Positions 5,263-61,562 of a DNA stretch of 64,000 nucleotides are shown in pieces (position 1 is the stretch's first letter; each line of letters opens with the position of its first letter). Source of the stretch: Pseudidiomarina tainanensis (GTDB lineage: Bacteria > Pseudomonadota > Gammaproteobacteria > Enterobacterales > Alteromonadaceae); contig NZ_PIQJ01000001.1 of NCBI RefSeq assembly GCF_004214835.1, positions 806,001-870,000 of the forward strand, given 5' to 3'. Below the pieces are notes generated by a model, which ran no database searches, had not been told where the DNA came from, and saw nothing but the letters and a program-made list of their open reading frames with translations. A program made the position numbers and the translations under genes.

Positions 5263-5360
5263 CAAAAGCGATATTGGCTATTAGATATTGGATATTAGAA
5301 CAAAAGTTTGAAACTCTTGCTAGTATCCAATATCTAATAGCTAATATCGCAGTTGAATTT
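5263..5360 (+). repeat. GATATTR-heptad palindromic repeat, copy A (leader of the M48 peptidase gene)
   Basis: The arms 5268-5294 and 5324-5350 are 27-bp inverted repeats with one G-U-compatible mismatch around a 29-base spacer. The left arm is made of 7-bp units: GATATTG, GCTATTA, GATATTG, GATATTA (5270-5297). The element is followed by a GTTGAATTT boundary (5352-5360), also found in copy C, and then at once by the AGGAGG ribosome-binding site of the next gene. In RNA it would form a long hairpin ending about 20 nt before the start codon. It could also weaken expression from dnaJ. Confidence 0.9.
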
Positions 5361-5370
5361 AGGAGGGGAT

Positions 5371-6183
5371 ATGGGTCATTGGATGAAAGTTGCTGGTGCC
5401 GCGCTATTGAGCGTGTCGCTACTAAGCGCATGTACTGAATCGCCAACTGGGCGTAGTCAGCTGATGCTATTCTCCAGTGGTCAATTAGCCTCCTTAGGTG
5501 ATGATAGTTACGCCAAACTTAAAGCCCAAGAAAAGGTGAGTACCGATGCGCGCACTAATGCCTATGTGCGTTGTATTACCGATGATTTGATTGCCGTTCT
5601 GCCGAGCCCTTGGCGTGACAAGGAGTGGGAAGTTACGGTATTTGATAGCGAACAGGTGAATGCTTTTGCCTTACCTGGCGAAAATATCGGTGTCTACACT
5701 GGGCTGTTAAAAGTTGCCGAAAATCGCGATCAACTGGCGGCTGTTATTGGTCATGAGATTGGTCATGTGATTGCCGACCACGGTAACGAACGCATGTCTA
5801 ACCAGTTTGCTGTTGGCTTAGGCTTGCAACTGGGGTCAGTATTGGTTGCTGAAAACCTCGATAGTGAAACGGCTGCGCTAGCAATGGCGGCACTGGGTAT
5901 TGGTGCGCAAGTGGGCGTATTACTCCCATACTCTCGTGTGCATGAGAGTGAATCCGATCAACTCGGTCTCGATTACATGGCTGCAGCTGGCTATAACCCT
6001 CTGGAAGCAGCCGATTTATGGCGCAACATGGCCAAAGCTGGTGGTGGCGGTACTCCAGAATTTTTGTCGACTCACCCCTCGCCACAATCACGGATTCAAG
6101 CGATAGAGGCGTATGCGCCGAAGGTGCAACAGCTTTATCAGCAAGCTTCATCGCAACGCCGCAAACCGCTCTGCACCCTTTAA
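5371..6183 (+). CDS. M48-family zinc metallopeptidase lipoprotein (LoiP-like)
   Basis: A predicted membrane-anchored periplasmic zinc peptidase, 270 residues. The N-terminus is a lipoprotein signal with lipobox LLSAC, Cys21. The catalytic HEIGH motif is at residues 128-132, and the downstream HESESDQLG segment supplies the third zinc-ligand Glu. A C-terminal STHPSPQSRI motif is typical of the M48 LoiP/BepA-like group. I chose the ATG at 5371 because AGGAGG ends 4 bases before it; the next in-frame ATG at 5383 is too far. The substrate is unknown; E. coli relatives take part in outer-membrane protein quality control. Palindromic repeats flank it on both sides (copies A and B). Confidence 0.88.
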   Translation: MGHWMKVAGAALLSVSLLSACTESPTGRSQLMLFSSGQLASLGDDSYAKLKAQEKVSTDARTNAYVRCITDDLIAVLPSPWRDKEWEVTVFDSEQVNAFALPGENIGVYTGLLKVAENRDQLAAVIGHEIGHVIADHGNERMSNQFAVGLGLQLGSVLVAENLDSETAALAMAALGIGAQVGVLLPYSRVHESESDQLGLDYMAAAGYNPLEAADLWRNMAKAGGGGTPEFLSTHPSPQSRIQAIEAYAPKVQQLYQQASSQRRKPLCTL

Positions 6184-6189
6184 CGGCAA

Positions 6190-6240
6190 CGACGATATTA
6201 GCTGTTGAATATTAGATATTAGCAACAGCTACTATCGTCG
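6190..6240. repeat. GATATTR-type palindrome, copy B (between convergent genes)
   Basis: An 18-bp inverted repeat with one mismatch (arms 6190-6207 and 6223-6240, outer end CGACGATA) surrounds a loop made of the family heptads GAATATTAGATATTAG. The outer arm sequence differs from the other copies, but the core is the same. It lies 6 bp after the M48 peptidase stop and 8 bp after the stop of the convergent gdx gene, so it may act as a bidirectional 3' hairpin. Confidence 0.8.
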
Positions 6241-6248
6241 TTTGAAAG

Positions 6249-6563
6249 CTAGCTGGCGAGTTTCATTAGAATTAAGCCTGATATAATTAGTGTGGCAGCT
6301 AACAATCTCAGGGGCGTGACTGGTTCGCCAAGAAACCAAATACCTACTGCAAAAGCACCTATCGCCCCAATTCCTGTCCAAATAGTGTAGGCCGTTCCTA
6401 ATGGAATAGTTCGCATAGCTACAGCAAGTAACCAAAAGCTAATCAGCATTGTAACGAGTGTAATAGTGGATGCGAGAGGGCGGGTGAAGCCGAGTGATTG
6501 CTTCATTGAAAACGCCCAAATAATTTCAAAAACACCGGCAATAAATAGATAGAGCCAAGCCAT
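6249..6563 (-). CDS. gdx: Guanidinium exporter, small multidrug resistance family (Gdx/SugE)
   Basis: A 104-residue, four-helix inner-membrane protein that exports guanidinium in exchange for protons. It aligns closely with E. coli SugE/Gdx: an IAGVFEIIWAF helix with the essential Glu at residue 13, the central GTAYTIWTGIGAIGAFAVGI signature, and the C-terminal helix ending in ILMKL. The Gdx subtype is distinguished from the drug-exporting EmrE type by this signature. The call is strengthened by a guanidine-II riboswitch immediately upstream. An AGGAG ribosome-binding site precedes the ATG. It is convergent with the M48 peptidase gene. Confidence 0.95.
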   Translation of the reverse strand: MAWLYLFIAGVFEIIWAFSMKQSLGFTRPLASTITLVTMLISFWLLAVAMRTIPLGTAYTIWTGIGAIGAFAVGIWFLGEPVTPLRLLAATLIISGLILMKLAS

Positions 6564-6565
6564 AC

Positions 6566-6651
6566 GGCGCTCCTTTTTTAGCGCCAGGTCGTCCTGGTCA
6601 GTTATCCCTTAAATATATCGAGTGGGCCCAGATTGGGAGAGGTCGTCCTCT
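6566..6651 (-). promoter_or_regulatory. Guanidine-II (mini-ykkC) riboswitch controlling gdx
   Basis: On the gdx strand there are two small hairpins with the invariant ACGA loop: AGAGG-ACGA-CCTCT (6651-6638) and CCAGG-ACGA-CCTGG (6597-6584). About 40 nt separate them. This is the two-hairpin guanidine-II architecture, in which the ACGR loops bind guanidinium and kiss. Just after P2, GGCGCT (6585-6580) can pair with AGCGCC (6571-6566), placing the AAGGAG ribosome-binding site in a hairpin. That hairpin reuses the last bases of P2, so the two folds exclude each other. Ligand-stabilised P2 would free the ribosome-binding site (inference). Confidence 0.92.
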
Positions 6652-6731
6652 GTCGGGAATTTTATCACTTGGTTATATGTCAGTCCAAAATGAACTAAAG
6701 CCCGTCCACCACCGTTAGTACAATACTCAAC

Positions 6732-6829
6732 AAAAGCGATATTGGATAATAGATTTTAGAGCCGATGTATCAGGTATTAGTGGTTTATCTAATATCGAAT
6801 ATCCAACAGCCAATATCGAAGTTGAATTT
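6732..6829 (+). repeat. GATATTR-heptad palindromic repeat, copy C (leader of the symporter gene)
   Basis: This is a degenerate copy. The outer arms CGATATTGG (6737-6745) and CCAATATCG (6810-6818) pair perfectly, and the inner arms contain heptad remnants that differ by about one 7-bp unit. Its flanks match copy A: CAAAAGCGATATTGG on the left and CGNAGTTGAATTT on the right. The GAATTT boundary ends 12 bases before the start codon of the downstream symporter gene. Confidence 0.8.
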
Positions 6830-6841
6830 TGATGAGGTGTT

Positions 6842-11169
<4,328 letters not shown>

Positions 11170-11176
11170 TTACCTC

Positions 11177-12397
11177 CTAATGATCATGCGCTGCGCCGTC
11201 TTTTAAGACGTCAGCTTTGAGTAAATAGCTATTATCAACCACGTAGCTTGCGCCAGGTTCAATACCATCAAGAACTTCAACAAACTCGCCATCGTCGCGA
11301 CCTAGCTCAAGCATTCTGACCTCAAAGGTATTGCCTACGCGCACAAAGACTACAGGGCGCTCGCGAAACGTTTGCAACGCTCGCTTGGCAACCGCTTGTG
11401 CTGCTTTTATCTGATGAGTTGTCACGTCAGCTTTCACGTGCATGCCAGGACGCCAATGACCTTCACTATTATCAATCACTGTGCGTGCACGAGCGATATG
11501 ACCGCCGGTCATCTTTGGCGCAATATAGGTGATTTCGCTGGTCGCTTGTAAGTGCTGATGTAAGTCGTAAACGTTAACTGATTGCCCAACGGATAATTGC
11601 TCGATAGTTTCTGGAAAGGCGGATAATTCAATCCATACCTTGGATAAATTCGTAATTTCAAACAACTGTTGTGAATTGGCGACTTCGCCGATATTTGCGT
11701 TGCGCTCGGTCACTTCGCCAGAAATAGGGCTAAATAAAGTATAAATCGAACCACTTGCTGCGTTACGAATCCGCGCAAGAGGTTGGTCATGCTCGACGGC
11801 ATCACCAATATCAACAAGCACTTCGGTAATTACTCCCGGATATTGCGCGCTGACACCGCGTTGTAATGAATTGACTGGTGCGACAATGCCAAACATTGTT
11901 TCTTTAAAAACCAAGTTTTTCGGTTCAACTTCTGCGGTTGTTATGCCTGCGGCTTCGATAACGCGATTAGAGAGCTCTGTGCGACCTTCAAAATTCTCGT
12001 ATCGCCATTGCACTTGGTTATTTTGGTAACTTGCACTGACATTAACTGTGTATGAGTGAGGTTCGTAGATCTCCTGTTCACTGACGAAATAATCGTTTTC
12101 TGGAACAAAAGTTAAGTTGTCAGTGACTTCACCGAGTCGCTCCAATGAAACAGTGAGTTGGAAATCCGTAGGCATGATTGCTTGGCCGTCGCTGTATGCA
12201 TAAACTCGCATCTCCGGTGGTATACCTGTCTCATAAATTGTGATTTCAATGTCAAAGTTATCACTGGTAAGTAATTTACCGCCATGTGGACCTTCAACCT
12301 CGTTCGTTTCCGTGAGAGCTGATGTACTTGCAGTAGCAATGTTAGTCGTGACGCCTAACATCAACATGAGTGAGAATAAATGGATCATGAACTTCAT
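11177..12397 (-). CDS. czcB: Periplasmic adaptor subunit of metal efflux RND system (CzcB-like)
   Basis: Membrane-fusion protein linking the RND pump to the outer-membrane channel, 406 residues. It has an N-terminal signal or anchor segment (about residues 1-23), then a GPHGGKLL motif and beta domain that many CzcB-type adaptors carry before the HlyD-like core. The biotinyl-lipoyl-like part is at about 165-240 (GVITEVLVDIGDAVEHDQPLA), and the C-terminal beta-barrel domain ends in a His-containing AAHDH tail. It overlaps the stop of the TolC-like gene by 4 bp (translational coupling) and precedes czcA by 10 bp. Confidence 0.9.
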   Translation of the reverse strand: MKFMIHLFSLMLMLGVTTNIATASTSALTETNEVEGPHGGKLLTSDNFDIEITIYETGIPPEMRVYAYSDGQAIMPTDFQLTVSLERLGEVTDNLTFVPENDYFVSEQEIYEPHSYTVNVSASYQNNQVQWRYENFEGRTELSNRVIEAAGITTAEVEPKNLVFKETMFGIVAPVNSLQRGVSAQYPGVITEVLVDIGDAVEHDQPLARIRNAASGSIYTLFSPISGEVTERNANIGEVANSQQLFEITNLSKVWIELSAFPETIEQLSVGQSVNVYDLHQHLQATSEITYIAPKMTGGHIARARTVIDNSEGHWRPGMHVKADVTTHQIKAAQAVAKRALQTFRERPVVFVRVGNTFEVRMLELGRDDGEFVEVLDGIEPGASYVVDNSYLLKADVLKDGAAHDH

Positions 12398-13638
12398 AGG
12401 GTTGCTTCCATAAATGATTGGCCAGTCATACGCTCAAGTTGTAGAAGGTCTTGATAAGTCGCGTATTGGCGTTGAATTTGTTGTTTTTCGAGTTCAGCAA
12501 GCTGTTCTTGCGCATCTAAGATTTGCAGTACACTGTAGATACCGTCGCTGTAACCATTACGAATCGTTTCAACGAGTGTTTTTGCTCGCGGCACGAGTTG
12601 CTCAGTTAAATCGGTCAGCATTTGTGTTTGCACCTGCACATTGGCAAGGAGTGCATTCGCTCTGCTCTTTAGCTGCTCACGGAGCATTTTTTGCTGGGCT
12701 AGCACAAGATTTTGTTCAGCGCGGTTTTGCGCAATATTGCCGCGTTGCGGATTACTAAGCTGAAATGGAATAGATGCGTTTAAAACGAAACCAAAATCAT
12801 CGTTAGCGGCGTTATGACGAACACCAGCGCCGATCCGAACATCAGCAACTGCTGCCGCTTTCAGTGCTTCAAGCTTGGCAGTGAGTAATCGTTCAGAGTC
12901 AAAGAGCTTGAGTAGTTCTGGTGCGCGCATTACCGCGCTTTCGAGTTTCGCTCGAGTCGGGATTGCAATATCACTAGCAAAGTTACCGAGCACACGATTA
13001 AATTCGGTTGATTCAGCCCACATCGAGGTTAATTCATAGCGCGCCTGAACCAGCTGATTACCAAGCTCTTTGAGCTTTGCTTGGTTGGTTGCAATCGCGA
13101 GTTCAACACGCATCGATTCGCCTCGCGGAGCGCCACCAAGATTGAAGCGTTGCTGCGCAAGCTGATAGGTATCTTGTAATCGAGATAGATAGATCTGCTG
13201 GTGTTTCTCTAGCTCTTGCAACAGAAGTAAACGATAAAATCTGGTTGTCGTCTCAGCAAGAATCTCAATTTTGGCATAGTTAAACTCTGCTTCAATCAGT
13301 TCTCGTTCTGCGTCGGCAACTGCGATTCGTGAATCGAGTTTGCCGCCAAGTTCGATAACCTGACTAAATGCCAACGTCGTTTCGAGATGGCTTAAACCCT
13401 CTTGTGAACCACTACCAAGTAAATTCTCGAATTCAATATCGAGCGAGGGGTTAGGGCGCAATGCAGCTTGCATTCGGGTCGCCTCAGCCACCCTTAATTG
13501 GTAAGGGAACTGCAGTAATGTTGGGTTTTGATTGAGGGTTTGCGTTAATGCTTCACGCAAACTTAAATTCTTAGCCAGCGCAGGTGTATTGATCAAAGTA
13601 ATCAATAGCAAGGCGAGGCCAAAGCGAAATATCGCCAT
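12394..13638 (-). CDS. czcC: Outer-membrane efflux channel, TolC/CzcC family
   Basis: Outer-membrane trimeric channel of the metal exporter, 414 residues. The signal peptide spans about residues 1-22 (ending PALAKN). Two outer-membrane-efflux repeats of mostly helical, Gln/Leu/Ala-rich sequence follow, for example LSLREALTQTLNQNPTL near the start and GIYSVLQILDAQEQLAELEKQQ near the end. A GGAGAA ribosome-binding site lies upstream of the ATG. Overlap with the adaptor gene and the same-strand czcA show the function. The family call is certain; the metal is inferred from the CzcA motif. Confidence 0.9.
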   Translation of the reverse strand: MAIFRFGLALLLITLINTPALAKNLSLREALTQTLNQNPTLLQFPYQLRVAEATRMQAALRPNPSLDIEFENLLGSGSQEGLSHLETTLAFSQVIELGGKLDSRIAVADAERELIEAEFNYAKIEILAETTTRFYRLLLLQELEKHQQIYLSRLQDTYQLAQQRFNLGGAPRGESMRVELAIATNQAKLKELGNQLVQARYELTSMWAESTEFNRVLGNFASDIAIPTRAKLESAVMRAPELLKLFDSERLLTAKLEALKAAAVADVRIGAGVRHNAANDDFGFVLNASIPFQLSNPQRGNIAQNRAEQNLVLAQQKMLREQLKSRANALLANVQVQTQMLTDLTEQLVPRAKTLVETIRNGYSDGIYSVLQILDAQEQLAELEKQQIQRQYATYQDLLQLERMTGQSFMEATL

Positions 13639-13696
13639 GGAAATTCTCCATTCGTTTTGTTAATCAATGAGAATCGGACTTGATCCGAGTTGACGT

Positions 13697-14041
13697 TTAA
13701 ACGGCCGAAGAATTAGGCGGCGGAACCGGCGGTTGCGGGTTCGCAATAGTGATGAACAATTTGGGAGTTTTAATGCGCTCAACCAATTTACTGGTTGGCA
13801 ACGCAAATGCAGCATAAGCAGTCAAGCAACTCACGTGAGCATGGAATTGATGCTCGCTGTCATGCTCATCGGTTGCTTGTTGATGTTTGTCACTTTGATG
13901 ATGTTGTTGGTGGTCAGAATGTTGTTGGTAAACAATATCAATATTATGTTCGCTGTCGCTGATATGACCTGCTGCCACGGAACATGTAAATAGTCCATGA
14001 AACAACATAATCGAAATGAGGAGCAAGACAGTTTTATTCAC
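13697..14041 (-). CDS. Histidine-rich secreted protein, CzcI-like
   Basis: A 114-residue protein with an N-terminal signal peptide (about residues 1-24). A histidine-rich middle (about 25-70) follows, with repeated HQQHH, DKHQQ, DEHDSEH and HAHVSC motifs. Next come a short hydrophobic stretch (CLTAYAAFALP) and a proline-rich end (PPVPPPNSS). The layout resembles CzcI, a small periplasmic protein encoded just before czcC in Cupriavidus, thought to bind metal or modulate induction. The start is a GTG with only a weak ribosome-binding site, so it is less certain. It lies 58 bp before czcC on the same strand. The metal-binding role is inference from composition and position. Confidence 0.75.
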   Translation of the reverse strand: MNKTVLLLISIMLFHGLFTCSVAAGHISDSEHNIDIVYQQHSDHQQHHQSDKHQQATDEHDSEHQFHAHVSCLTAYAAFALPTSKLVERIKTPKLFITIANPQPPVPPPNSSAV

Positions 14042-14173
14042 GTGACGAATATTTTCTTCAAGTGCAAAGGAAGAATTGATGATAACAAGGCGCGCTGGTT
14101 AAAACAATGATGGCAACATGGATGACTTTTACGCTAAGCTTTGAGCCATAAACAATGACCACGAGTATGACTC

Positions 14174-14977: not shown

Positions 14978-15005
14978 ACTGGCGCGGTTGAGTTAATTCG
15001 TATGC

Positions 15006-15060: not shown

Positions 15061-15183
15061 TTTGCCAGTAACATTTCGGGCAAGCTGAAACGCGCACTCC
15101 ACTGGTATTCAGAGGTGCAAATTCAGAGCGAGCTAAATAGCTTTGGATGCATTCTGAATATCCGACGCTGGTGCAAGGTAATC

Positions 15184-15220: not shown

Positions 15221-15237
15221 ATGTACGGAGGTTAACC

Positions 15238-33912: not shown

Positions 33913-33980
33913 CCACAGCGATTTCGTCGGTGCTGAATTAGTGATTGGCACTGACATTCTTAAACAATCAGGAGTAATAT

Positions 33981-34250
33981 ATGTCACTAACTGCGGCACA
34001 AAAAGCGGAAATCGTTAAAGAATACGGTCAAGGCGAAAACGACACTGGTTCTCCAGAAGTTCAAGTTGCTTTGTTAACTGCAAACATTAACGAGCTGCAA
34101 AGCCACTTTAAAGAACACGCAAAAGATCACCACTCACGTCGTGGTCTGTTACGTATGGTAAGCCAACGTCGTAAGTTGTTGGACTACTTAAAGCGTAAAA
34201 ACAATCAGCGCTATGCAAGCCTGATTGAGCGACTCGGTTTACGTCGCTAA
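33981..34250 (+). CDS. rpsO: 30S ribosomal protein S15
   Basis: An 89-residue primary 16S rRNA-binding protein. The sequence is typical throughout, with [35 protein letters not shown] and the C-terminal RLGLRR. A CAGGAG ribosome-binding site precedes the ATG. In E. coli S15 represses its own mRNA through a pseudoknot in the leader; I could not confirm such a fold here. A terminator and a palindromic repeat separate it from pnp. Confidence 0.99.
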
Positions 34251-34289: not shown

Positions 34290-34303
34290 CGTTTAATGAA
34301 AAA

Positions 34304-34400
34304 CTAAAGCGATATTGGATATTAGATATTGGATATTAGAAAAGCGAGCCGGCATTTAGCGAGTATCTAATATCTAGTAGCTAATAGCGCTTTAGAATTT
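34304..34400 (+). repeat. GATATTR-heptad palindromic repeat, copy D (pnp leader)
   Basis: Arms 34304-34335 and 34364-34395 are each 32 bp, with a few mostly G-U-compatible mismatches around a 28-base spacer. The left arm contains four perfect 7-bp units, GATATTG/GATATTA alternating (34311-34338). The outer 8 bp, CTAAAGCG/CGCTTTAG, pair perfectly. The GAATTT boundary shared with copies A and C follows at 34395-34400. The RNA hairpin would sit 28 nt before the pnp start codon. Confidence 0.92.
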
Positions 34401-34428
34401 AGAGAGAAAGAAGAAAGGAAAATAACAC

Positions 34429-36564
34429 GTGAATCCGATTACAAAGAAATTTCAGTATGGTCAGCATACAGTCACATTAGAAACTGGCGCGATGGCGCGT
34501 CAAGCAACAGCAGCAGTACTTGCAAGCATGGACGACACCACCGTATTGGTGACCGTTGTCGCAAAAAAAGACGCTAAAGAAGGTCAAGATTTCTTCCCAT
34601 TAACCGTGAACTACCAAGAGCGTACTTACGCAGCTGGTAAAATACCTGGTGGCTTTTTCAAGCGTGAAGGCCGTCCTTCAGAAAACGAAACGTTGACCTC
34701 ACGTTTAATCGACCGTCCAATTCGTCCGTTATTCCCTGAAGGTTTTAACAACGAAGTTCAAGTGATTGCGACCGTCGTATCGGTTAATCCACAAATCAAT
34801 CCTGATATCGTTGCGTTGATTGGTACTTCTGCGGCGTTGGCTATCTCTGGTGTTCCATTTGCTGGCCCAATTGGTGCAGCACGCGTTGGTGTAATCAACG
34901 ACGAATATGTATTGAACCCAACCATGGACGAACTCGCTACTTCGAAACTTGATTTAGTTGTTGCTGGTACGTCAAGCGCAGTATTGATGGTTGAATCAGA
35001 AGCTCAGTTGCTGTCTGAAGACGCCATGTTAGGCGCGGTCGTTTATGGTCACGATCAAATGCAATCAGTGATCAATGCGATTAACGAATTTGCAGCTGAA
35101 GCTGGTAAAGAGAAGTGGGACTGGCAAGCTCCTGCGACTAACGATTCTTTATTGAACAAAATCAAAGAATTGGCTGAGCAAGGTATCGGCGATGCTTACC
35201 GCATCACTGAGAAGGCCAAGCGTTACGAACAAATCGCTGCGCTAAAGGCTGAAATCACTGAGAAATTAGTTGCCGAAGACGAAACTTTGGATGCGAAAGA
35301 AATTGGTGACTTATTCCATTCATTGGAAAGCAAAGTGGTGCGTAGCCGTATCATCGCCGGTGAAAAGCGTATCGATGGCCGTGAACCAGATATGGTGCGT
35401 GCATTGCATATCGCTACTGGCGTGTTACCGCGTACGCACGGTTCTGCGGTATTTACTCGTGGCGAAACCCAAGCGTTGGTCACTGCTACCTTAGGTACTG
35501 AGCGTGATGCGCAGATGATTGACGACCTAACTGGTCGCACTGATAGCCGTTTCATGTTGCACTACAACTTCCCTCCATACTGTGTGGGCGAAACCGGCAT
35601 GGTAGGTTCACCGAAGCGTCGTGAAATTGGTCACGGTCGTTTGGCGAAACGTGGTGTGCAAGCGGTCATGCCATCACAAGAAGAATTCCCGTACACCATT
35701 CGTGTGGTGTCAGAAATCACTGAATCAAACGGGTCAAGCTCGATGGCATCAGTTTGTGGTGCATCATTAGCGTTGATGGATGCTGGTGTTCCAATTAAAT
35801 CGTCAGTTGCTGGTATCGCCATGGGCTTGGTCAAAGAAGGCGACAACTTTGTTGTGTTGTCTGACATCTTGGGTGATGAAGACCACTTGGGCGACATGGA
35901 CTTTAAAGTAGCGGGTAGCACAGAAGGTGTCACAGCGCTTCAGATGGATATCAAGATTGACGGTATCACACGTGAAATCATGGAAATTGCATTGGCTCAA
36001 GCAAAAGCTGCGCGTTTGCACATTTTGAACGTGATGGATGATGCGATTTCTGGTGCTCGTACTGAATTATCAAGCTACGCGCCACGCTACACCACAATCA
36101 AAATTAATCCAGATAAGATTCGTGACGTTATCGGTAAGGGCGGTGCAGTTATCCGTGAATTAACCGAGAGCACAAATACCAACATCGAAATCAATGATGA
36201 CGGTACCGTACGTATCGCAGCAACTGACCAAGAATCAGCAGATGCAGCGATTGCGCGTATTGAAGAATTGACAGCTGAAGTTGAAGTGGGCCGAATCTAC
36301 CAAGGTAAAGTTGCACGTATCGTTGATTTCGGTGCGTTCGTGACGATTCTACCTGGCAAAGATGGCTTGGTGCACATTTCACAAATCGCTGAAGAGCGTG
36401 TGAACGACGTGAACGAGTATTTGAAAGTTGGTGATGTTGTACCAGTAAAAGTACTCGAAATTGACCGCCAAGGCCGTGTTCGTTTGAGCATGAAAGATGC
36501 TGCTGATAAGCCGGCTGAAGCGCCTGCACAAGATGCGGCTGAAGAGTCTTCAAACGACGAATAA
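34429..36564 (+). CDS. pnp: Polyribonucleotide nucleotidyltransferase (PNPase)
   Basis: Phosphate-dependent 3'-5' exoribonuclease, a trimer and degradosome partner. The 711-residue protein has two RNase PH domains (from residue 5; second near 310-540, with [14 protein letters not shown] and [14 protein letters not shown]). A KH domain with [10 protein letters not shown] near 565 and an S1 domain near 620-690 follow, with an acidic tail. It starts with GTG 34429 after an AAAGGAA ribosome-binding site. In E. coli pnp is autoregulated through an RNase III-cut leader hairpin; here copy D of the repeat occupies that place. Confidence 0.99.
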
Positions 36565-53306: not shown

Positions 53307-53325
53307 TCAACTGCTAAATAATTGA

Positions 53326-53517
53326 TTAAAGGGCGTACCACATCATCAGCATAACGACGACACCAAACACACCAAAGAAGGCGTATTCAAGGCGTTCGCG
53401 CTGCTGGGCGTCACGGTTTTCGTTACGGTGAAAAGCAAACATGCCCAAACTAGTCACACCAAGTGAACCAGCACCAACTAAAATGGCAAATAACAAAGCG
53501 GCAATAATGTTTTCCAT
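53326..53517 (-). CDS. Small membrane protein of unknown function
   Basis: A 63-residue protein I do not recognise. It has two hydrophobic segments (about residues 4-27 and 45-62) with a short charged loop HRNENRDAQQRERLEY between them. A clear GGAGAA ribosome-binding site stands 6 bases before the ATG, so it is likely real. It lies between lnt and leuS on the same strand, 19 bp before leuS. No function can be proposed from the sequence. Confidence 0.7.
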   Translation of the reverse strand: MENIIAALLFAILVGAGSLGVTSLGMFAFHRNENRDAQQRERLEYAFFGVFGVVVMLMMWYAL

Positions 53518-53570
53518 GGCGATTCTCCATGCTGGATAAATAAAAGTTTAATACAGTAGCTTGAGTAAGC

Positions 53571-55097
53571 TTAGTTTACTGATTTTGAGCTGGTTTGACT
53601 ACGCCGAACTGCTATCAAAGTACTGACTAATGCCAGTATAACAGCGATTAGCCATGCGCCGAGTGAACCGAATAGTTGAAACAACGTTTGTCCTTTGACA
53701 ATAGGAACTTCGGCGCTTAATGCCGTCGAGGTAAACTGCGGTGCTCGTGCAATCTCATTGCCATAGGCGTCGACCACGGCAGTGATTCCATTATTGGTTG
53801 CTCGTAATAACGGGCGACCGAGCTCCAATGCTCGCATACGGGCAATTTGCATATGTTGGGCTGGCCCGTGTGAAGCGCCAAACCAAGTGTCGTTGCTCAC
53901 GGTTAAAATATAGTCTGTACTGGCTGAGACATTTGCTCGAACTTGCGCCGGGAATGCTATTTCGTAACAAATAGCGCCGGCTAAGTGAAAGCCTTTGGCG
54001 CGCAAGTTCGGTTGCTTGTAGTCTCCACGCGTAAACGAGCTCATCGGCAAGTCGAACAGAGGCGCAAGTGGTCGTAGTAAGTCTTCGAACGGGACAAACT
54101 CGCCAATCGGTAGTAACTGATGTTTTTGATAACGATTGGTATGACCATGTGCATAAGGCTCGACCGGTTGATAAGGTGCATCGAGACCGAGCACAATCAT
54201 CGTATTAAAGTATTCGCTATTCTGATAATCAATAATACCGGTAATTAGTGTGGTGTTGGTATCAACTAAAGCCTTATCGATATTTTTCAAAACATCATCG
54301 GTATAAGGTTCGGGCATGGTAATCGCTGATTCTGGCCAGACAATAATGTCATGAGTTGGATAATGAGGGCGACTCAAGTCCAGATAAGTCATCAAAGATT
54401 GCCAGTGTTGATCTGGATTCCATTTGATTGATTGTTCGATGTTGCCTTGTACAAGTAAAACCCGAGCTTCTTCCCCAGTGGATTTCAGTGGGCTTATCCA
54501 CGGTAGGGCGAATGGAATGATGAGTAAGCCGAAGGCAACCAGCCCAAACTCTTTTCGTTGATATTCAAACCAACAGTACAGTGAAATTGCAATCGACCAC
54601 AGTACGACCGTAATGCCGACGCCGCCTAACCACGGTGCGTAATTACCGAGCCAGCCATCGGTTTGCGTGTAACCAAGTTCAAGCCAAGGAAAGCCGGTGA
54701 GAAACCAACCTCGAATCGATTCACTGACCAACCAAGTGAGGGGTAACACGCCAATCGCCAGCCGCCCCAGCCAACGCTCGCTATATTTCCACAGAAACAA
54801 CGCTAATGCAGGGAAGATACTTAAGTAGATGAACAATACGGCTAAGACGGCAATCGATGCGAGAACTGGTAAGCCACCAAATTGGTCAATACTGACGTAG
54901 ATCCAGCTAAGGCCGGCACTAAACCAACCTAAACCGAAATAAAAGCCGATACGCCAAGCCATATATGGCGTGGTATCGCGCAGGGTAAACAGTAAGGCAA
55001 CCAAAACAGGTAACACCAGCCACGCCTGAGAGAAGGGCGCATAGCTGAATATTAGGCTGCCACCAAGTAGCAGCGCTATAATTCGTCGCGTGTTCAT
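53571..55097 (-). CDS. lnt: Apolipoprotein N-acyltransferase
   Basis: Adds the third acyl chain to lipoproteins at the inner membrane. The 508-residue protein has N-terminal membrane helices (about residues 5-195), then a nitrilase-like periplasmic domain. The triad is visible as Glu in VWPESAITMPE, Lys in KHQLLPIGEFVPFEDL and Cys in AGAICYEIAFP. A last helix closes the C-terminus. It starts one base after the corC stop and is in the corC-lnt order of E. coli. Confidence 0.98.
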   Translation of the reverse strand: MNTRRIIALLLGGSLIFSYAPFSQAWLVLPVLVALLFTLRDTTPYMAWRIGFYFGLGWFSAGLSWIYVSIDQFGGLPVLASIAVLAVLFIYLSIFPALALFLWKYSERWLGRLAIGVLPLTWLVSESIRGWFLTGFPWLELGYTQTDGWLGNYAPWLGGVGITVVLWSIAISLYCWFEYQRKEFGLVAFGLLIIPFALPWISPLKSTGEEARVLLVQGNIEQSIKWNPDQHWQSLMTYLDLSRPHYPTHDIIVWPESAITMPEPYTDDVLKNIDKALVDTNTTLITGIIDYQNSEYFNTMIVLGLDAPYQPVEPYAHGHTNRYQKHQLLPIGEFVPFEDLLRPLAPLFDLPMSSFTRGDYKQPNLRAKGFHLAGAICYEIAFPAQVRANVSASTDYILTVSNDTWFGASHGPAQHMQIARMRALELGRPLLRATNNGITAVVDAYGNEIARAPQFTSTALSAEVPIVKGQTLFQLFGSLGAWLIAVILALVSTLIAVRRSQTSSKSVN

Positions 55098-55976
55098 CTA
55101 GTCCGCATCTACAGCGTTATTGGTATCCGTGATGGTTACCTGGAGTTGTTGAATACGGCGTTTATCGGCACCGGTGACTTTAAATAAAATGCCGCCAAGG
55201 GTGAGCTCTTCGCCGACCTGCGGTAAATGACCAAATCCATGGGCGACCATGCCGCCAATGGTGTCATATTCTTCGTCGCCGAATGTGGTATTGAAGTAGT
55301 CATTAAAATCTTCAATGGTGGTCAACGCTTTGACAGAATAGCGGGATTTGTTAATTCGGCGAATATCCGCTTTGTTATCTTCGTTGTAATCGGTTTCGTC
55401 TTCGATTTCACCGACAATTTCCTCGAGGATATCTTCAATGGTCACCAAACCAGAAACACCGCCATATTCATCGACAACAATCGCCATGTGATAACGCTGT
55501 GAGCGAAACTCTTTCAACAGCACATCTACACGCTTACTCTCTGGCACAATCACAGCAGGGCGTATGACTTCAGACAGGGCAAACTCATGGTCGGTCATAC
55601 CGAATCCATAAGCGAGCAAATCTTTGGCAAGTAAAATACCTTCAACGTGGTCTTTGTTCTCACTAACCACTGGGTAGCGGCTATGTTGAGAATCAATCAC
55701 GATAGGCAGAAAAGACTCAACGCTTTGATTAACATCGATAGTAACCATTTGTGAACGTGGCACCATAATGTCGCGAACTTTGAGTTCCGCAACATCAAGC
55801 ACACCCTCAATCATTTCTTTGGTGTCGTTATCAATTAAGTCGCGTTCTTCGGCGTCTTGGATTAAATCAACTAACTCTTCGCGGCTGTTCGGCTCTCCGG
55901 TAAAAAGTTGCAACAGTTTGGTTGCCCACGTTTTACGCGCAGAACCGTTGGTAGAGTGTGGATTATCATCGCTCAT
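55098..55976 (-). CDS. corC: CorC/YbeX CBS-domain protein (magnesium/cobalt homeostasis)
   Basis: A 292-residue soluble protein with two CBS domains: about residues 70-125 (VRDIMVPRSQMVTIDV) and about 130-190 (VVDEYGGVSGLVTIEDILEEIVGEIEDE). A C-terminal CorC_HlyC domain follows (IGGMVAHGFGHLPQVGEELTLGG). It acts with magnesium efflux in Salmonella; later work links YbeX to ribosome function. It lies between ybeY and lnt, the conserved order. Confidence 0.96.
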   Translation of the reverse strand: MSDDNPHSTNGSARKTWATKLLQLFTGEPNSREELVDLIQDAEERDLIDNDTKEMIEGVLDVAELKVRDIMVPRSQMVTIDVNQSVESFLPIVIDSQHSRYPVVSENKDHVEGILLAKDLLAYGFGMTDHEFALSEVIRPAVIVPESKRVDVLLKEFRSQRYHMAIVVDEYGGVSGLVTIEDILEEIVGEIEDETDYNEDNKADIRRINKSRYSVKALTTIEDFNDYFNTTFGDEEYDTIGGMVAHGFGHLPQVGEELTLGGILFKVTGADKRRIQQLQVTITDTNNAVDAD

Positions 55977-55994
55977 GTGCTGTTTTTGCTCCGT

Positions 55995-56477
55995 TTAGTG
56001 CTGGTTATCAGCGTGGTCATCAGCATAAGGGTCAGCATACCCCAGTGCTTTCAGAATGTCTCTTTCGAGCTGTTCCATATGCTCGGCTTCGTCGTCTTCA
56101 ATATGGTCATAACCTAGCAAATGCAAGGTTCCGTGTACAACCATATGTGCCCAATGTGCGATTAAGGGCTTATTTTGCTCACGCGCTTCTTGCGCAACAA
56201 CGTCAGCACAAATAACCAAATCACCCAATAAGTTGATAGGCAAGGGAATAGGTGATTCGAATGGAAACGACAATACGTTGGTGGCATACGCTTTGTTTCG
56301 ATACTGCTGATTAAGGGCTAAGCCCTCTTCTGGATCAACAATGCGTAAGGTTAATTCGGTTTCAGTGGTGCTGTTGAGGTGGTGCAGCACTGCTTCTACC
56401 CAGGCTTCAAAAGAAGCTTCAGACGGCAATTCCGCTGCAGTGCAGGCAATTTGCACGTCAATGGTTACGTGGTTCAT
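55995..56477 (-). CDS. ybeY: Endoribonuclease YbeY (rRNA maturation)
   Basis: Zinc-dependent RNase needed for 16S rRNA 3' maturation and 70S quality control. The 160-residue protein has the signature [25 protein letters not shown] (HGxLHLxGYDH), holding the three zinc histidines. The N-terminal [31 protein letters not shown] also fits. It overlaps ybeZ by 4 bp. Confidence 0.97.
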
Positions 56478-57463
56478 GAGTTTTCGTCGAACGCCTCATA
56501 GGCTTGCACAATGCGTTGCACCACAGGGTGGCGGACGACATCAGAAGCTTGGAAGAAGGTAAAACTGACATCGTCCACATCTTTTAGTACTTCGATGACG
56601 TGACGGAGACCAGATTTTTGACCACGCGGTAAATCAACTTGGGTAATGTCCCCGGTGATCACAGCGCGCGAGTTGAAACCAATACGTGTTAGAAACATTT
56701 TCATTTGTTCACAGGTGGTGTTTTGGCTTTCATCGAGAATAATAAATGCGTCGTTAAGTGTACGACCACGCATGTATGCCAGCGGCGCAACTTCAATCAC
56801 GTTACGCTCAATGAGTTTTTCGACTTTTTCAAAGCCTAACATTTCGAATAGCGCGTCATACAACGGGCGTAGATACGGGTCTACTTTTTGCGCAAGATCG
56901 CCAGGTAAAAATCCAAGTTTTTCACCAGCTTCGACTGCTGGACGCGTCAGTAAAATTCGACGAATCTCTTGACGCTCCAACGCATCAACAGCACAAGCCA
57001 CGGCTAAGTAGGTTTTACCTGTGCCAGCAGGGCCAACACCAAAATTCACATCATGAGTCAAAATAGCGCGAACGTATTCGGCTTGATTATGGTTACGCGG
57101 CTTGATTAACCCACGCTTGGTTTTTATATGAGTCATTTTTTCCGCGGCAGGGTCGTTATCAGGCGACTGCTCAAGCACTTTGGCTTGTTGCACAGCTAAA
57201 TGCACCATTTGTGGTGTCACTTTTCCTTCTTCACCTTTCACTGTCGCAGTTTCGACGTAGAGATCACGCAGGATTGTCGCCCCCGCTTGAACGGTATGGG
57301 TTGGACCTATCAGCCGAAATTCATTGTGGCGATGACTAATTTCAATGCCAAGACGACGCTCAATATGCTTCAGATTTTCATCCAAAGCGCCGCAAAGATC
57401 AGCAATGCGGCGATTGTCGGCAGGTTCTAAATCGATGTCTAGGGTACTGACAGTTTGACTCAA
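56474..57463 (-). CDS. ybeZ: PhoH-like ATPase YbeZ (PhoL)
   Basis: A 329-residue PhoH-family NTPase, thought to work with YbeY in RNA metabolism. It has an N-terminal RNA-binding-like region, then [19 protein letters not shown] (Walker A, about residue 140). [34 protein letters not shown] and [24 protein letters not shown] (Walker B) follow. It is followed, with a 4-bp overlap, by ybeY and lies after miaB, the conserved order. Confidence 0.96.
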
Positions 57464-57478
57464 GGTTACCTCGTTATA

Positions 57479-58921
57479 TTAATTGGCTACTGGCGGCACA
57501 AATGTCGCAACACCCAATTCGTCTGGTTGTGTACGTGCCTGACGGGCAAGAATTGCTTGGGGTGATGTATCTACACGTAATCCCATATCAGATTCAACGC
57601 GCAACACGTCACCGCGAAGTGAGTTCACAAATACATCGGTGATTTTTACATCAACGAATTTGCCAATCATGTCTGGCGTACCGGTGAAGTTGACCACCCG
57701 GTTGTTCTCGGTCCGGCCGCTCAATTCCATTGGGTCTTTTTTCGACGGGCCAGTCACCAAAATACGTTGTTCGGTTCCGAGCATGCGGCGCGCATGTGCA
57801 TGTGATTGCTGATTCAAGCGCTGTTGCAATAATTGCAGGCGTTGTTTTTTGGTCTCTTCGCTTACATCATCGGGTAAGTCAGCCGCAGGTGTGCCCGGAC
57901 GTGCGCTGTAAATGAAACTAAAGCTCATGTCGTAATCAACAGCTTGGATTAAGTCCATGGTTGCTTCGAAATCAGCGTCAGTTTCGCCTGGGAAGCCAAT
58001 AATAAAATCAGAGCTCATGGCAATATCAGGACGAATTTTTTTCAGCTTACGAATCTGCGATTTGTATTCCAGTGCAGTATGGCCGCGTTTCATGAGTGTC
58101 AGAATACGATCAGAGCCACTTTGTACTGGAAGATGCAAATGACTGACTAACTCCGGAATCGTGGCATAAGCCTCGATAATGTCATCAGTAAATTCCACTG
58201 GGTGCGAAGTAGTGTAACGAATCCGGTCGATACCATCGATAGCGGCCACTAAATGGAGTAGCTCAGCAAATCGACAAACAGTACCGTCATGATGTTCGCC
58301 GCGGAACGCATTCACGTTCTGACCTAACAAGTTCACTTCACGAACGCCTTGCTCAGCAAGTTGCGCAATTTCAAACAGCACGTCATCAACGGGGCGACTC
58401 ACTTCTTCGCCACGAGTATATGGGACTACGCAGAAGGTACAGTACTTACTACAGCCTTCCATGATTGAAACAAACGCGGTTGGGCCGTCAGCTTTCGGCT
58501 CAGGTAAGCGATCAAACTTTTCAATTTCTGGAAAGGAAATATCAACCATCGGTGTATGGTTGGTTTGAACTTGTTTAACCATCTCAGGCAGTCGGTGCAA
58601 GGTTTGTGGACCAAACACAATATCGACATATGGTGCACGCTGACGAATGTGGTCACCTTCTTGTGATGCCACACAGCCACCTACACCAATGACAAGCTCA
58701 GGGTTCTTGTCTTTCAGTGTCTTCCAGCGTCCCAATTGATGGAACACTTTTTCTTGCGCTTTTTCGCGAATCGAGCAGGTATTGAGCAGAATCAAGTCAG
58801 CCTCTTCAGGCTCAGCTGCCACATCATAACCGTGCGTTGCTTTGAGTAGATCAGCCATTTTTGCTGAATCGTACTCGTTCATCTGACAACCCCACGTTTT
58901 TATATATAACTTCTTACTCAT
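57479..58921 (-). CDS. miaB: tRNA-2-methylthio-N6-isopentenyladenosine-37 methylthiotransferase
   Basis: Radical-SAM enzyme adding a methylthio group to i6A37 in tRNAs reading UNN codons. The 480-residue protein has the N-terminal UPF0004 domain with its cysteines ([31 protein letters not shown]). The radical-SAM CxxxCxxC is in [21 protein letters not shown]-terminal TRAM domain and an extra tail are present. It is first in the miaB-ybeZ-ybeY-corC-lnt run and diverges from the ubiF region. Confidence 0.98.
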
Positions 58922-59011
58922 AAACCTCTGTGCTCACTTGCTTATTGCGTTGATGACACCGCACACGATGACTACGTCTATAAAGGGCTGCTATTTTAGC
59001 CCGAACCACGC

Positions 59012-59896
59012 CTAACTGCCAACTTTGTGACCAGTTTCTGCCTTGCGTCGCGTGCGAATGGCCAAATATCCCGCTACCGTAATAACGGCCGCGCCTAAAA
59101 TCATACTGAAAGTAATGGGTTCGTCCCAAAACCAATAGCCCATAATTGCGGCAAAAATCACTGAACTGTAGGTGAAAACACCAACGCGAGCAGCTGGGGC
59201 AAGAGCAAAAGCTTTGGTCATACCCAGTTGACCAGCTACGGCCAATCCACCCATGGCGATGATACCGAGCCAATGTTCACTGGCAATAGATTCACCTCGC
59301 CAAATTAGTGGAATTGCAGAAATAACCGTCGCCAATGTCGAAAAATAGAAAACAATTTTACTCGAAGACTCGGTTGCCGACATCTGTCGGATCAAAGTTT
59401 TGGTGAACGCAGCTAAGCAGGCAGCAATAAATGCCACACCAATAATCGGCGACAACTGCGCTTGCGCTGGATTAAGGAATATAAACACCCCAATAAAACC
59501 GATGCCAATGGCTAGCCAAGTTTGCGCTAAAACGCGCTCGTTCAACCACAACCGCCCGATAATTGGAATGATAAAGGGCGACAATAGTAGCACTAAAGTT
59601 GCTTGTGCCAGCGGCAAATTGGCAATGGCATAGAAAAACAAATACATCGCGGCAAGCCCAGCTAAACCGCGTGTTAAATGGAAACGCCACGCTTTGGTTT
59701 TGAATGCGTCAGGACCTTTACGCCATAACCATGGCAGTAATACGACAAACGCCATTAAATTACGAAAAAACACTAATTGTTCTGACGGCAAATCAGTGCT
59801 CAAATACTTCACTAACGCACTGACGCCAGCAAAACAAAGTTCGGCGCCAAGTACTAAAGCAGAAGCGATCACCACCGTTCGTTGTGGGGTGTCCAT
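59012..59896 (-). CDS. DMT-superfamily (EamA) transporter
   Basis: A 294-residue membrane protein with ten predicted helices in two EamA repeats (about residues 7-135 and 145-285), the drug/metabolite transporter layout. The substrate cannot be told. I use ATG 59896, which has TAAGGA a few bases upstream, over the GTG at 59920, which has none. It diverges from the DUF486 gene 44 bp away; another small transporter-like protein, perhaps a partner only by position. Confidence 0.85.
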   Translation of the reverse strand: MDTPQRTVVIASALVLGAELCFAGVSALVKYLSTDLPSEQLVFFRNLMAFVVLLPWLWRKGPDAFKTKAWRFHLTRGLAGLAAMYLFFYAIANLPLAQATLVLLLSPFIIPIIGRLWLNERVLAQTWLAIGIGFIGVFIFLNPAQAQLSPIIGVAFIAACLAAFTKTLIRQMSATESSSKIVFYFSTLATVISAIPLIWRGESIASEHWLGIIAMGGLAVAGQLGMTKAFALAPAARVGVFTYSSVIFAAIMGYWFWDEPITFSMILGAAVITVAGYLAIRTRRKAETGHKVGS

Positions 59897-59940
59897 AAAG
59901 TCCTTACGCGGTTGTTGCACCGCACCCAGAGAAGAGAAAA

Positions 59941-60294
59941 ATGAACCGCTATCTTATCACGATCACTTTACTCACGTTGAGCAATGTTTTTATGACATTT
60001 GCTTGGTATGCACATTTGAAAAATATGGCTGACAAACCGTGGATAATTGCCGCCTTTGCGAGTTGGGGTATCGCTCTTATTGAATATTTACTGCAAGTAC
60101 CCGCAAACCGAATTGGTTATGAAGTTATGAATCTTGGGCAATTAAAAATTTTGCAGGAAGTGATCACATTATCTGTATTTGTTCCATTCGCATTGTTTTA
60201 CATGAAAGAGAAGCTAACCTGGGATTATTTATGGGCTGGGCTGTGTATTTGTGGCGCAGTATTTTTTATTATGCGAAGTAAGTTAACCGGTTAA
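59941..60294 (+). CDS. DUF486 small membrane protein
   Basis: A 117-residue protein with four predicted helices, of the DUF486 family (a distant DMT relative). It has the typical LSNVFMTFAWYAHLKNM, SWGIALIEYLLQVPANRIGY and LKILQEVITLSVFVPFALFYMKEKLTWDYLWA. The function is unknown; a transport role is guessed from fold. It lies 14 bp before ubiF on the same strand, so the two may be co-transcribed. Confidence 0.88.
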   Translation: MNRYLITITLLTLSNVFMTFAWYAHLKNMADKPWIIAAFASWGIALIEYLLQVPANRIGYEVMNLGQLKILQEVITLSVFVPFALFYMKEKLTWDYLWAGLCICGAVFFIMRSKLTG

Positions 60295-60308
60295 ATAGGT
60301 ATTTTCAT

Positions 60309-61433
60309 ATGAACGTAGTCGTTGTCGGCGGTGGTATGGTGGGCGCTGGTGCTGCTGTTTCTTTAGCGAAACAGGGGCATCACGTAACCGTTATAGAAGC
60401 GGGCAAGGCTGCAGCAAGCGAGGGGGATTGGGATTTACGTATTTCATCCATTCACCTGCGCAATGTGGAGTGGCTAGAAGAATTAGCTACTTGGAGCAAC
60501 ATTCGCGCTGAACGCAAATTCATGTATACCGATTTAGCGGTGCAGACTGTTGATGGTCAACGGTTGAACTTTTCTAATACCGACGTTGATTGCTCAGCGC
60601 TTGGTGCAATGGTCGAAAATAATGCCTTGCAAGAAGCGTTATGGGGGCAATTCTCAGAGCACAATATTCGGGTATATAGCGAAACGCGTGTCGAGCAATT
60701 TGATTTAGCTGATCGCACTGTGGCGCTAAGCAACGGCGAGAAGCTCACATATGATTTGCTGCTGGGTGCCGATGGGGCGCAATCACAAGTGGCAAAGGCT
60801 GCCCAAATTGGTCAGCGTGGTTGGGACTACGATATGCATTGTATGCTTGCCATTGCAGACGTTGAACAGCCATTACCTGCGGCAACTTGGGAAGTGTTTC
60901 GTCACCAGGGGCCTTTTGCGCTGTTGCCATTAGGACCAAACCAAGCTTGTTTGATCGATTATCGCTCGCAGCAACAGTGGCAAGAATTTGCCGGTAATAG
61001 CGATGCGATAAAGCAAAGCTTGTGTGAAGTTTTTGCACCGCACATTGGTGCACACACCATCAGCAAGTTTGCGGGTTTTCCATTGCGGCGCCAACGTGCA
61101 TTGCGCTACACCAGTCACGATTCTGTTGCATTGATTGGCGATGCCGCACATAGCATCCATCCATTGGCGGGCCAGGGCGTGAACTTAGGTTTTGCTGATG
61201 TGCAAGAACTCACAACGCAACTTGCCGCAAACTCTTTGCTGCAGGCATTAAAGAACTATGAACGGATTCGTATGCATGAAAATCAGCAAATGATGCGAGC
61301 GATGGATGCGATTCATGTGGGCTTTCGTTCGCAGCATTTCCTGCCTCGCGGTTTGCTGGCGGCTGGTTTGACGTTAGTGGATAGGGTCGCGCCAATGAAA
61401 CGGCTACTAGTACGCAAGGCCATCGGCTTTTAA
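60309..61433 (+). CDS. ubiF: FAD-dependent ubiquinone-biosynthesis hydroxylase (UbiF-like)
   Basis: A 374-residue aromatic-ring flavin monooxygenase of the UbiF/UbiH/VisC group. It has the FAD motif VVVGGGMVGAGAAVSLAKQGHHVTVIE at the start and GADGAQSQVAKAA. LIGDAAHSIHPLAGQGVNLGFADVQEL (GD motif) follows near residue 275. The position next to miaB and the Met-Leu-Gln tRNA operon is that of E. coli ubiF, which hydroxylates C6 of the ubiquinone ring. Which ring carbon it modifies cannot be read from motifs alone. Confidence 0.88.
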   Translation: MNVVVVGGGMVGAGAAVSLAKQGHHVTVIEAGKAAASEGDWDLRISSIHLRNVEWLEELATWSNIRAERKFMYTDLAVQTVDGQRLNFSNTDVDCSALGAMVENNALQEALWGQFSEHNIRVYSETRVEQFDLADRTVALSNGEKLTYDLLLGADGAQSQVAKAAQIGQRGWDYDMHCMLAIADVEQPLPAATWEVFRHQGPFALLPLGPNQACLIDYRSQQQWQEFAGNSDAIKQSLCEVFAPHIGAHTISKFAGFPLRRQRALRYTSHDSVALIGDAAHSIHPLAGQGVNLGFADVQELTTQLAANSLLQALKNYERIRMHENQQMMRAMDAIHVGFRSQHFLPRGLLAAGLTLVDRVAPMKRLLVRKAIGF

Positions 61434-61437
61434 AGTG

Positions 61438-61562
61438 CAAAATCGATATTAGATATTGGATATTAGATATTAGATATTGGATATTAGATATTAGGGGATG
61501 GCCAACAAAAAAACGCTATTAGGTTTTAGCTAATATCGAATAGCTAATATCTAATAGCGTTC
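61438..61562. repeat. GATATTR-heptad tandem repeat and palindrome, copy E
   Basis: Positions 61445-61493 are seven perfect tandem 7-bp units, GATATTR, in the order A-G-A-A-G-A-A at the last base. After a short spacer, 61512-61561 carries the opposite-strand version of such units. That part also forms its own hairpin, AACGCTATTAG (61512-61522) with CTAATAGCGTT (61551-61561). The element lies between the ubiF stop and the 3' end of the convergent tRNA operon. Confidence 0.92.

Follow-up and report, generated by a model that had tools for sequence, protein, structure and literature searches.

What are the intergenic palindromes, built from 7-bp GATATTR units, that recur in a 64,000-nucleotide stretch of the Pseudidiomarina tainanensis genome (contig NZ_PIQJ01000001.1, positions 806,001 to 870,000; the whole stretch is called the window below), and what has spread them? 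A preliminary description, made from the letters of the window, had listed five copies. We find that the family is real and of the heptamer-repeat kind, and that its palindromes are probably miniature copies, lacking an open reading frame (ORF), of an element in which heptamer arrays accompany a gene for an IVP/S23 protein (23S rRNA-intervening-sequence protein). The association with IVP appears to be new, as does the rule that places most IVP genes between inverted period-7 arrays, often at stop codons: the open-access literature, to which our search was confined (subscription journals lay outside it), yielded no paper joining IVP with dispersed heptamer repeats.

An IVP gene in one copy of a genome-wide repeat family

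The genome that contains the window (G000; 2.37 Mb, 5 contigs) was searched together with its relatives, as the preliminary description had proposed, using a sequence-only model of the repeat arm rather than a covariance model of the whole element. Many further copies emerged: 160 arms in G000 at E <= 0.01, and others in congeners, all arm counts per genome being lower bounds (150 first-look candidates were scored in each). The exact dimer GATATTRGATATTR gave 88 + 80 (overlapping) matches in G000 and its reversed control 0 + 0, which bears out the claim of a dispersed palindrome family between genes; a replichore strand bias of the arms was considered and dropped, these totals being even (88/80). 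The arm measures 41 bp and consists of AANNNCAANNNC followed by GATATTA, GCTATTR, GATATTA, GATATTA and G. This conserved outer end was present in 112 of 118 arms found, and the arm is thus longer than its heptamers alone; an alignment of 112 arms reads TDAA NNN CAA NNN C before the same four units and the final G, with 41 bp from AA to the last G. Within the fetched stretches of contig C1 we counted 74 elements, 51 of them paired or composite (44 single inverted pairs and 7 composites) and 23 lone arms. The arms of 47 pairs were spaced by 13–87 bp, a range that covers only pairs less than 130 bp apart. In composites, whole arms follow one another head to tail at exactly 41 bp (several cases, with six arms at C5:244,699-244,947); these arms, together with runs of 7 units, confirm the suspected changes in unit number. 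Loops vary, but a recurring one resembles, by eye, CTGATGTATCGGGTATTTGTGTTTTC in both orientations.

In one full copy of G000 the arms stand 406 bp apart (C1:649,075-649,566; arms at L147:8076-8118 and 8525-8567) and enclose an ORF of 120 aa (8152-8514) that encodes an IVP/S23 protein (PF05635, 118.7 bits; TIGR02436 four helix bundle, 116.7 bits). It is the single IVP found in this genome, the remaining copies having no IVP ORF, and it lies outside the window, which is why it had been missed. Its neighbours are murJ and rpsT (MurJ and S20 by NCBIfam). The gene stands directly before murJ in 14 of 17 genomes (G781 and G782 included), and ~2 kb away in G009, G010 and G011.

Repeat number is linked to the presence of this gene. 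Among 24 genomes of the genus, 15 (G000 included) hold exactly one IVP and 9 hold none, and the arm counts were 157, 155, 127, 113, 71, 53, 41, 39, 23, 13, 2, 1, 1 and eleven zeros; all 11 genomes with at least two GATATTR arms carry IVP. When matches to the GTTATTC dimer were added to the GATATTR counts in 26 genomes, 15 of the 17 with IVP, and none of the 9 without it (0–4 matches), had at least 8; this cut-off was set after the counts were known, and the Fisher test (p = 1.8e-5) ignores kinship. G781 and G782 were scored here as IVP-positive from reading the DNA rather than from a profile, and GATATTR, which was not counted in them, was entered as 0. Rank tests of IVP against repeats, which need no cut-off and likewise ignore kinship, gave p = 6e-4 for GATATTR and p = 1.3e-4 for GTTATTC. 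A murJ tree implies four or more changes of IVP, and of four independent pairs three agree with the link, none opposes it and one is tied, too few for significance. A scan blind to the heptamer found 0 period-7 arrays in 160 kb of each of two IVP-negative genomes (320 kb), 10 in 103 kb of G000 and 7 in 200 kb of the IVP-positive G005.

An exact 30-base arm was found in 42 stretches from Pseudidiomarina marina, P. woesei, P. donghaiensis, P. gelatinasegens, an Idiomarina metagenome-assembled genome (MAG) and a Gammaproteobacteria MAG, in a search of a named genome collection that may leave out near relatives of the window. Two of 16 genomes outside the genus had weak matches, G027 (1) and G035 (3), and an order-wide scan of 394 genomes, whose strict filter and 16 scored candidates per genome say little on weak copies, gave one other match (G143, L100; E 5e-9).

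The IVP genes of the genus mostly lie between inverted heptamer arrays, with units GATATTR, GTTATTC, GTTATTG, GATGTTT, GTTGTTT and mixes of these (in general GNTRTTN). The protein changes as well: IVP identity between G000 and G017 or G019 is 46–48%, while MurJ there is 94% identical, so that the gene has either been replaced or diverged very fast in place. At L164 (G014) and L166 (G019) the IVP reading frame enters the downstream heptamer array (...RTNSEAHE...), and the protein tail is therefore encoded by repeat units.

Period-7 arrays around IVP genes beyond the genus

The same layout was found well outside Pseudidiomarina. Flanks of 250 bp were taken as period 7 at 16 or more matches out of 21, with other windows of the same loci as controls. 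By this measure 68 of 87 IVP loci from Gammaproteobacteria, plasmids and viral contigs carry period-7 flanking arrays: 11/15 in Pseudidiomarina, 24/30 in other Gammaproteobacteria, 11/14 on plasmids and 22/28 on viral contigs, against 0–4 loci in each of the four sets for periods 4–6 and 8–13. The second set comprises the best-scoring 29 loci (L179-L207) among 69 genomes with a match, G000 included, plus L177; the plasmid set comprises 14 of 26 records (12 cyanobacterial, 1 Azospirillum, 1 Gemmatirosa). The viral-contig set (34 loci, 28 once duplicates were removed) is out-of-sample, as it had no part in forming the period-7 idea; in 50,697 records of annotated phages there was no IVP match at E <= 1e-5. 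L167, L169 and L171 are close sister loci. Where both sides could be read (n = 45), the arrays were inverted in 41 cases, direct in 3 and unclear in 1, and several loci below the threshold have, by eye, short inverted heptamer arms.

The heptamers differ from locus to locus (GGGAGTA, GTGAGGG, GGCAGTC, GAGTTCT, TTCAGTG and others), and some are common to several loci. In two genomes the unit of the IVP gene is also dispersed: GTGAATA flanks the IVPs of G663 and G661, where its dimer has 186 and 82 matches (IVP locus included), with 0 in three other IVP-positive genomes. In the few G661 and G663 loci that were read, the dispersed arrays are single and not palindromic.

Could such arrays have spread without IVP? 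In a satellite-like drift, slippage and gene conversion among hairpins would multiply the arrays unaided and IVP would be a captured passenger. The expansions in unit number, the 41-bp tandem arms, the in-place swaps of heptamers between kept outer ends (see below) and the mismatch between IVP and dispersed heptamers in some genomes would all fit this account. We nevertheless consider it improbable: the nine IVP-negative genomes of the genus show no more than 0–4 repeat matches, and passenger capture gives no reason why IVP genes that are unrelated and come from different phyla should share a period of 7 instead of 6, 8 or 9. A period that stays fixed across unrelated heptamers points to a reader with a fixed step.

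Most of the cyanobacterial plasmid IVP genes that were read are flanked by tandem heptamer arrays, and IVP units also occur inside operons (cas10-IVP-cmr3, cas6-IVP-cas4, nrdB-IVP-nrdA). Eighteen IVP genes have been counted in cas loci (PMC3936711; here and below, statements on cited papers refer to the sections available to us). The heptamer flanks, and the existence of IVP-free relatives, suggest that IVP genes in cas loci are insertions of the element and not CRISPR components. Among the cyanobacterial plasmid loci in which IVP sits in CRISPR operons, the heptamer flanks are clear in L208 and L220 and short in L218.

Gene ends, site occupancy and the palindromes of the window

Where do the elements sit? 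According to our own ORF calling, rather than the annotation, 78 gene 3′ ends face one of the 74 elements of contig C1, and for 41 of them the distance to the arm's AA is −2, −1 or 0 nt, the stop codon being thus flush with the element; distances of −3 and +1 were seen for one gene end each. The flush stops are TAA in 32 cases, TGA in 6 and TAG in 3. Stops inside the array number 11, mostly at 7-bp steps, and the starts of genes that face elements are more widely spread than the 3′ ends. Around IVP genes at large, the array lies within 12 nt of the end of the upstream ORF on the same strand in 27 of 69 cases, against 1–8 after shifts of 30–120 nt, and within 12 nt of the end of a convergent downstream ORF at 15 of 50, against 0–11 after the same shifts. 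The 42 stops at these arrays are mixed (TGA 17, TAA 13, TAG 12), which argues that the target at IVP units is not a TAA motif.

In comparisons of related sites, whole units are present at some and absent from others. A 420-bp IVP unit on plasmid C of Trichormus variabilis is missing from Aulosira plasmid 3 and from a plasmid of Tolypothrix PCC 7601 (96–98% identity). These empty sites hold a single GTAATTAA after AAAAA; in Trichormus and Scytonema GTAATAAA precedes the unit and GTAATTAA follows it, amounting to a 5–8 bp target duplication that contains the stop codon. Likewise, Picosynechococcus PCC 7002 lacks the unit of 7003 and Calothrix NIES-4105 lacks the unit of Nostoc (85–91% identity), and Dolichospermum has other sequence at the site of the Anabaena 90 unit. 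Plasmid pC052_E of Nostoc sp. C052 (L306) carries an internally deleted IVP gene at the site of the intact Trichormus unit. Within Pseudidiomarina, at least four other orthologous sites have partly kept outer ends with a different heptamer inside, and one site (L121) has a palindrome in G000, none in P. gelatinasegens, and REPs of a RAYT (REP-associated tyrosine transposase) in P. woesei.

This last site bears on an account to which we give almost no credence, namely that the palindromes are REP/BIME sequences moved by a RAYT. G000 does encode one RAYT (NCBIfam REP_Tyr_transpos, 153.7 bits; L031, C1 at ~571 kb, 1312-1872, minus strand), the only Y1_Tnp/RAYT found, so that the look for such a gene suggested by the preliminary description was rewarded. 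However, several GTAGCCCGGCG REPs, and not GATATTR, surround it, and a RAYT with REPs of its own is not the partner of our arms. REPs are defined by a GTAG/GGAG head plus a small GC-rich hairpin; the arm consensus AANNNCAANNNCGATATTAGC... has neither. CRISPR was rejected too, as the arms are either paired as inverted repeats or follow each other directly at 41 bp, with no spacers between them. The palindromes had been described as neither REP nor CRISPR, and with no RAYT between the arms, no REP head or hairpin and no spacers, that statement holds.

A weightier alternative is that the host has adopted IVP as a regulator: the protein would bind RNA, the hairpin arrays at gene ends would be its sites for mRNA stability or termination, and their spread would be old, with no ongoing mobility. 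In its favour, the start of many arrays coincides exactly with a stop codon, RNA folding is strong for four of the five window copies, and some arrays have a loop that looks terminator-like by eye; moreover, Xanthomonas arrays of like kind are mostly transcribed and near stop codons (PMC4692102), and MacGregor proposed a repeat-binding protein for TAACTGA heptamers (PMC4679880). We still hold regulation to be rather unlikely as the explanation of the family. At plasmid sites that are nearly identical, the IVP unit is either there in full or missing, and it lies inside unrelated operons (cas, nrd). Copy number is patchy within one genus, and one site is occupied by a GATATTR palindrome in G000 and by RAYT REPs in P. 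woesei, while P. gelatinasegens has neither. An IVP-heptamer element with ORF-less copies remains our preferred reading.

Several observations weigh against that reading. Since TAA accounts for 32 of the 41 flush stops, a preference for AA may explain part of the stop-codon effect, and a shift control that reaches 11 makes the excess at downstream stop codons weak. Among the 51 paired G000 elements, no fixed offset revealed a target duplication, and only one IVP site has one; transposition is read from comparisons of sequences, with no movement observed. At the IVP loci, 19 of 87 fall below the period-7 threshold and 15 of 161 control windows reach it. Left–right pairing covariation, which the preliminary description had anticipated and which would be expected if the hairpin itself were selected, is absent from the arms, the variable seventh base of units 2–4 showing no left–right correlation. 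Outside the genus, G035 has its three weak matches without IVP. Within it, four genomes with IVP (G005, G010, G012, G016) have 0–1 GATATTR arms; the 4 overlapping period-7 arrays in 200 kb of G010 all lie at the IVP locus. G551 likewise has arrays, of GAGTTCT, only at its IVP locus. The IVPs of G017 and G019 are flanked by GTTATTC-type arrays, yet these genomes hold 113 and 127 GATATTR arms, and the IVP arms of G005 are GTTGCTA, its other sampled arrays being mostly GTTATTC. Finally, IVP has no catalytic activity that we know of, and the analysis turned up no partner enzyme for it. Given G005, G010, G017 and G019, a strict rule by which the dispersed heptamer equals that of the resident IVP was dropped; the mismatch in G005, G017 and G019 would reflect either recent replacement of IVP or an IVP that is not strictly sequence-specific.

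All five palindromes of the window were recovered where they had been described. Matches to two units with at most 2 mismatches number 26 in the window, against 1.21 expected and a maximum of 5 in 100 shuffles. Element 1 (5256..5362) has a left arm at 5263-5298 (+), a loop and a right arm at 5320-5355 (−), and its CAA lies 5 nt past the stop codon of ORF 4118-5257. Element 2 (6180..6243) is a short two-unit hairpin with a left arm at 6187-6222 (+), whose AA coincides with the last two letters of the TAA stop that closes ORF 5353-6183. In element 3 (6726..6832) a decayed left arm (~6732-6767) faces an intact right arm (6789-6824, −). Element 4 (34297..34402; left arm 34304-34339, +; right arm 34360-34395, −) lies downstream of an Rfam S15 leader (33925-34037) and an 89-aa ORF (33981-34250) and before a 711-aa ORF (34429-36564), ORFs that we take to be rpsO and pnp. 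Element 5 (61431..61572) begins at the TAA stop of ORF 60309-61433, adjoins a tRNA cluster and has an expanded left array (61438-61494, +) and a right arm (61530-61565, −). As single-stranded RNA, four of the five fold far better than shuffles (z −13.0, −7.3, −7.2 and −5.5 for elements 1, 2, 4 and 5), the exception being the decayed element 3 (z −2.4); element 5 does not fold as one simple hairpin.

Three further features of the elements deserve mention. In the window elements and in all paired arms, a 3 × 3 mismatch is kept inside an otherwise near-perfect hairpin, as the NNN that separates CAA from CGATATT tends not to match its counterpart in the partner arm: 33 of 165 positions are equal in G000 against 62 expected, a count as low as in none of 5000 re-pairings. 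For loci from other species the figures are 38 of 150 against 54.5, with 0.1–0.3% as low, although these copies are partly orthologous. Part of this avoidance may arise because AAG is favoured on the arm that faces the gene end. Terminator-like sequence was noticed by eye in the loop or just past a lone arm at L003, L024, L049 and L009, as if arms had been placed on either side of it. Arms near contig ends were at first suspected of marking assembly breaks in arrays, an idea dropped after reading the end of C1 and the start of C3 (L161, L162), where 5S-like rRNA sequence stands, by eye, beside the arms; the elements there thus more likely adjoin rRNA operons. Arms also occur near contig ends in the sister species G011, G017 and G019, and elements may sit downstream of rRNA operons.

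A proposed mechanism and its relation to known systems

How might a small helical protein act on heptamers? The solved IVP relatives 2gsc and 2rld have five chains each, 2gsc being described as a homopentamer (PMC4990558), and the G000 arm has five heptads if CAANNNC is counted. We therefore propose that one heptad is read per IVP subunit, which would explain both the fixed period of 7 and the 4–5 heptads per arm. IVP would bind the arrays, probably as a folded hairpin in RNA or single-stranded DNA, and once bound would let host enzymes copy or insert the hairpin-bounded unit at gene ends; ORF-less copies would be served in trans, in the way that RAYT serves REPs. Hairpins in transcripts would be tolerated because they follow stop codons and could be cleaved by RNase III, like the intervening sequences (IVSs) of rRNA, and heptamers may drift, slip and be swapped in place, leaving lineages with different units.

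Another conceivable route is retrohoming driven by a reverse transcriptase, with IVP in the role that the Avd protein plays in diversity-generating retroelements. PF05635 proteins do resemble Avd (PMC10053308), and RVT_1 is abundant in G661 (41) and G663 (12) and occurs in G011 (1) and G014 (2). In G000 itself, as in 11 of the 13 Pseudidiomarina genomes searched (G000 included), there is no RVT_1 (PF00078), which makes Avd-like retrohoming very improbable there in our view, barring a reverse transcriptase outside PF00078; in G661 and G663 it may play a part.

Returning to IVP as a trans-acting factor, we offer a broader proposal more tentatively than the reading of the palindromes, as one that may well prove wrong. 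IVP/S23 would serve phylum-spanning mobile elements that lack a transposase, as a pentamer reading inverted heptad arrays one heptad per subunit and guiding either the unit or hairpins without an ORF to stop codons (and to loops of rRNA); arrays would be rewritten genome-wide when the heptamer or IVP changes; and cyanobacterial STRRs, Xanthomonas GGGAATC, 23S IVSs and GATATTR palindromes would be of one kind. If IVP does spread its arrays, this would be a mobile system without a recognisable transposase. For the IVP/S23 proteins of rRNA genes, cas loci and plasmids the literature, in the sections available, gives no function, and no agreed cause has been offered for the heptanucleotide repeats described from Calothrix/Nostoc, Xanthomonas and Beggiatoa; an IVP layout common to them would unite them, and a single protein with a single oligonucleotide would then suffice to test both.

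STRR is the name for heptanucleotides of heterocystous cyanobacteria. Like these, and like the TAACTGA repeats of Beggiatoaceae (PMC4679880), the GATATTR units are tandem heptamers between genes; the TAACTGA sets, however, are direct repeats with one inverted exception, and S23 is not mentioned in the available sections of that report. X. campestris has 186 GGGAATC arrays, with 70 convergent pairs and a preference for 4 units, near or overlapping stop codons and mostly transcribed (PMC4692102, where Calothrix heptanucleotides are also cited). The Xanthomonas GGGAATC and Nostoc GGGGA(C/T)T repeats share with ours the dispersed tandem heptamers and differ in the heptamer (PMC4692102). They have been explained, for GGGAATC, by G-quadruplexes (PMC4692102), but GATATTR units have no G tracts of 3. 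The same paper, in the sections available, does not mention S23. The structure of an S23 protein from X. campestris has also been solved (2gsc, XCC0516). The preliminary description recognised no named family in the palindromes; tandem heptamers of like kind have been published under other names (GGGAATC of X. campestris; the repeats of Calothrix/Nostoc), although, as far as the available text goes, without the link to IVP. Conversely, the available sections of reports on IVP in cas loci, on rRNA insertions and on the resemblance to Avd do not include heptamers.

The IVSs of 23S rRNA genes with an S23p ORF (Coxiella, Leptospira; PMC4990558) have an S23/IVP ORF in a stem loop, together with heptamers, and are described as selfish and processed by RNase III. 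In Coxiella, tandem heptamers (GACAGAT) precede the S23 ORF and vary in number between strains (PMC4990558). The L147 copy resembles them in that its S23/IVP ORF lies between inverted repeats. Those IVSs sit in rRNA genes, whereas the G000 copies that were read sit at the ends of protein genes and all but one are without an IVP ORF. In its organisation the family resembles REP/BIME–RAYT systems, with a single-copy protein gene inside one copy of the repeat and many non-coding copies at gene ends, and the two kinds can hold the same site in sister species. Their parts differ: IVP is a four-helix bundle and its repeat a heptamer array, whereas RAYT is an HUH transposase.

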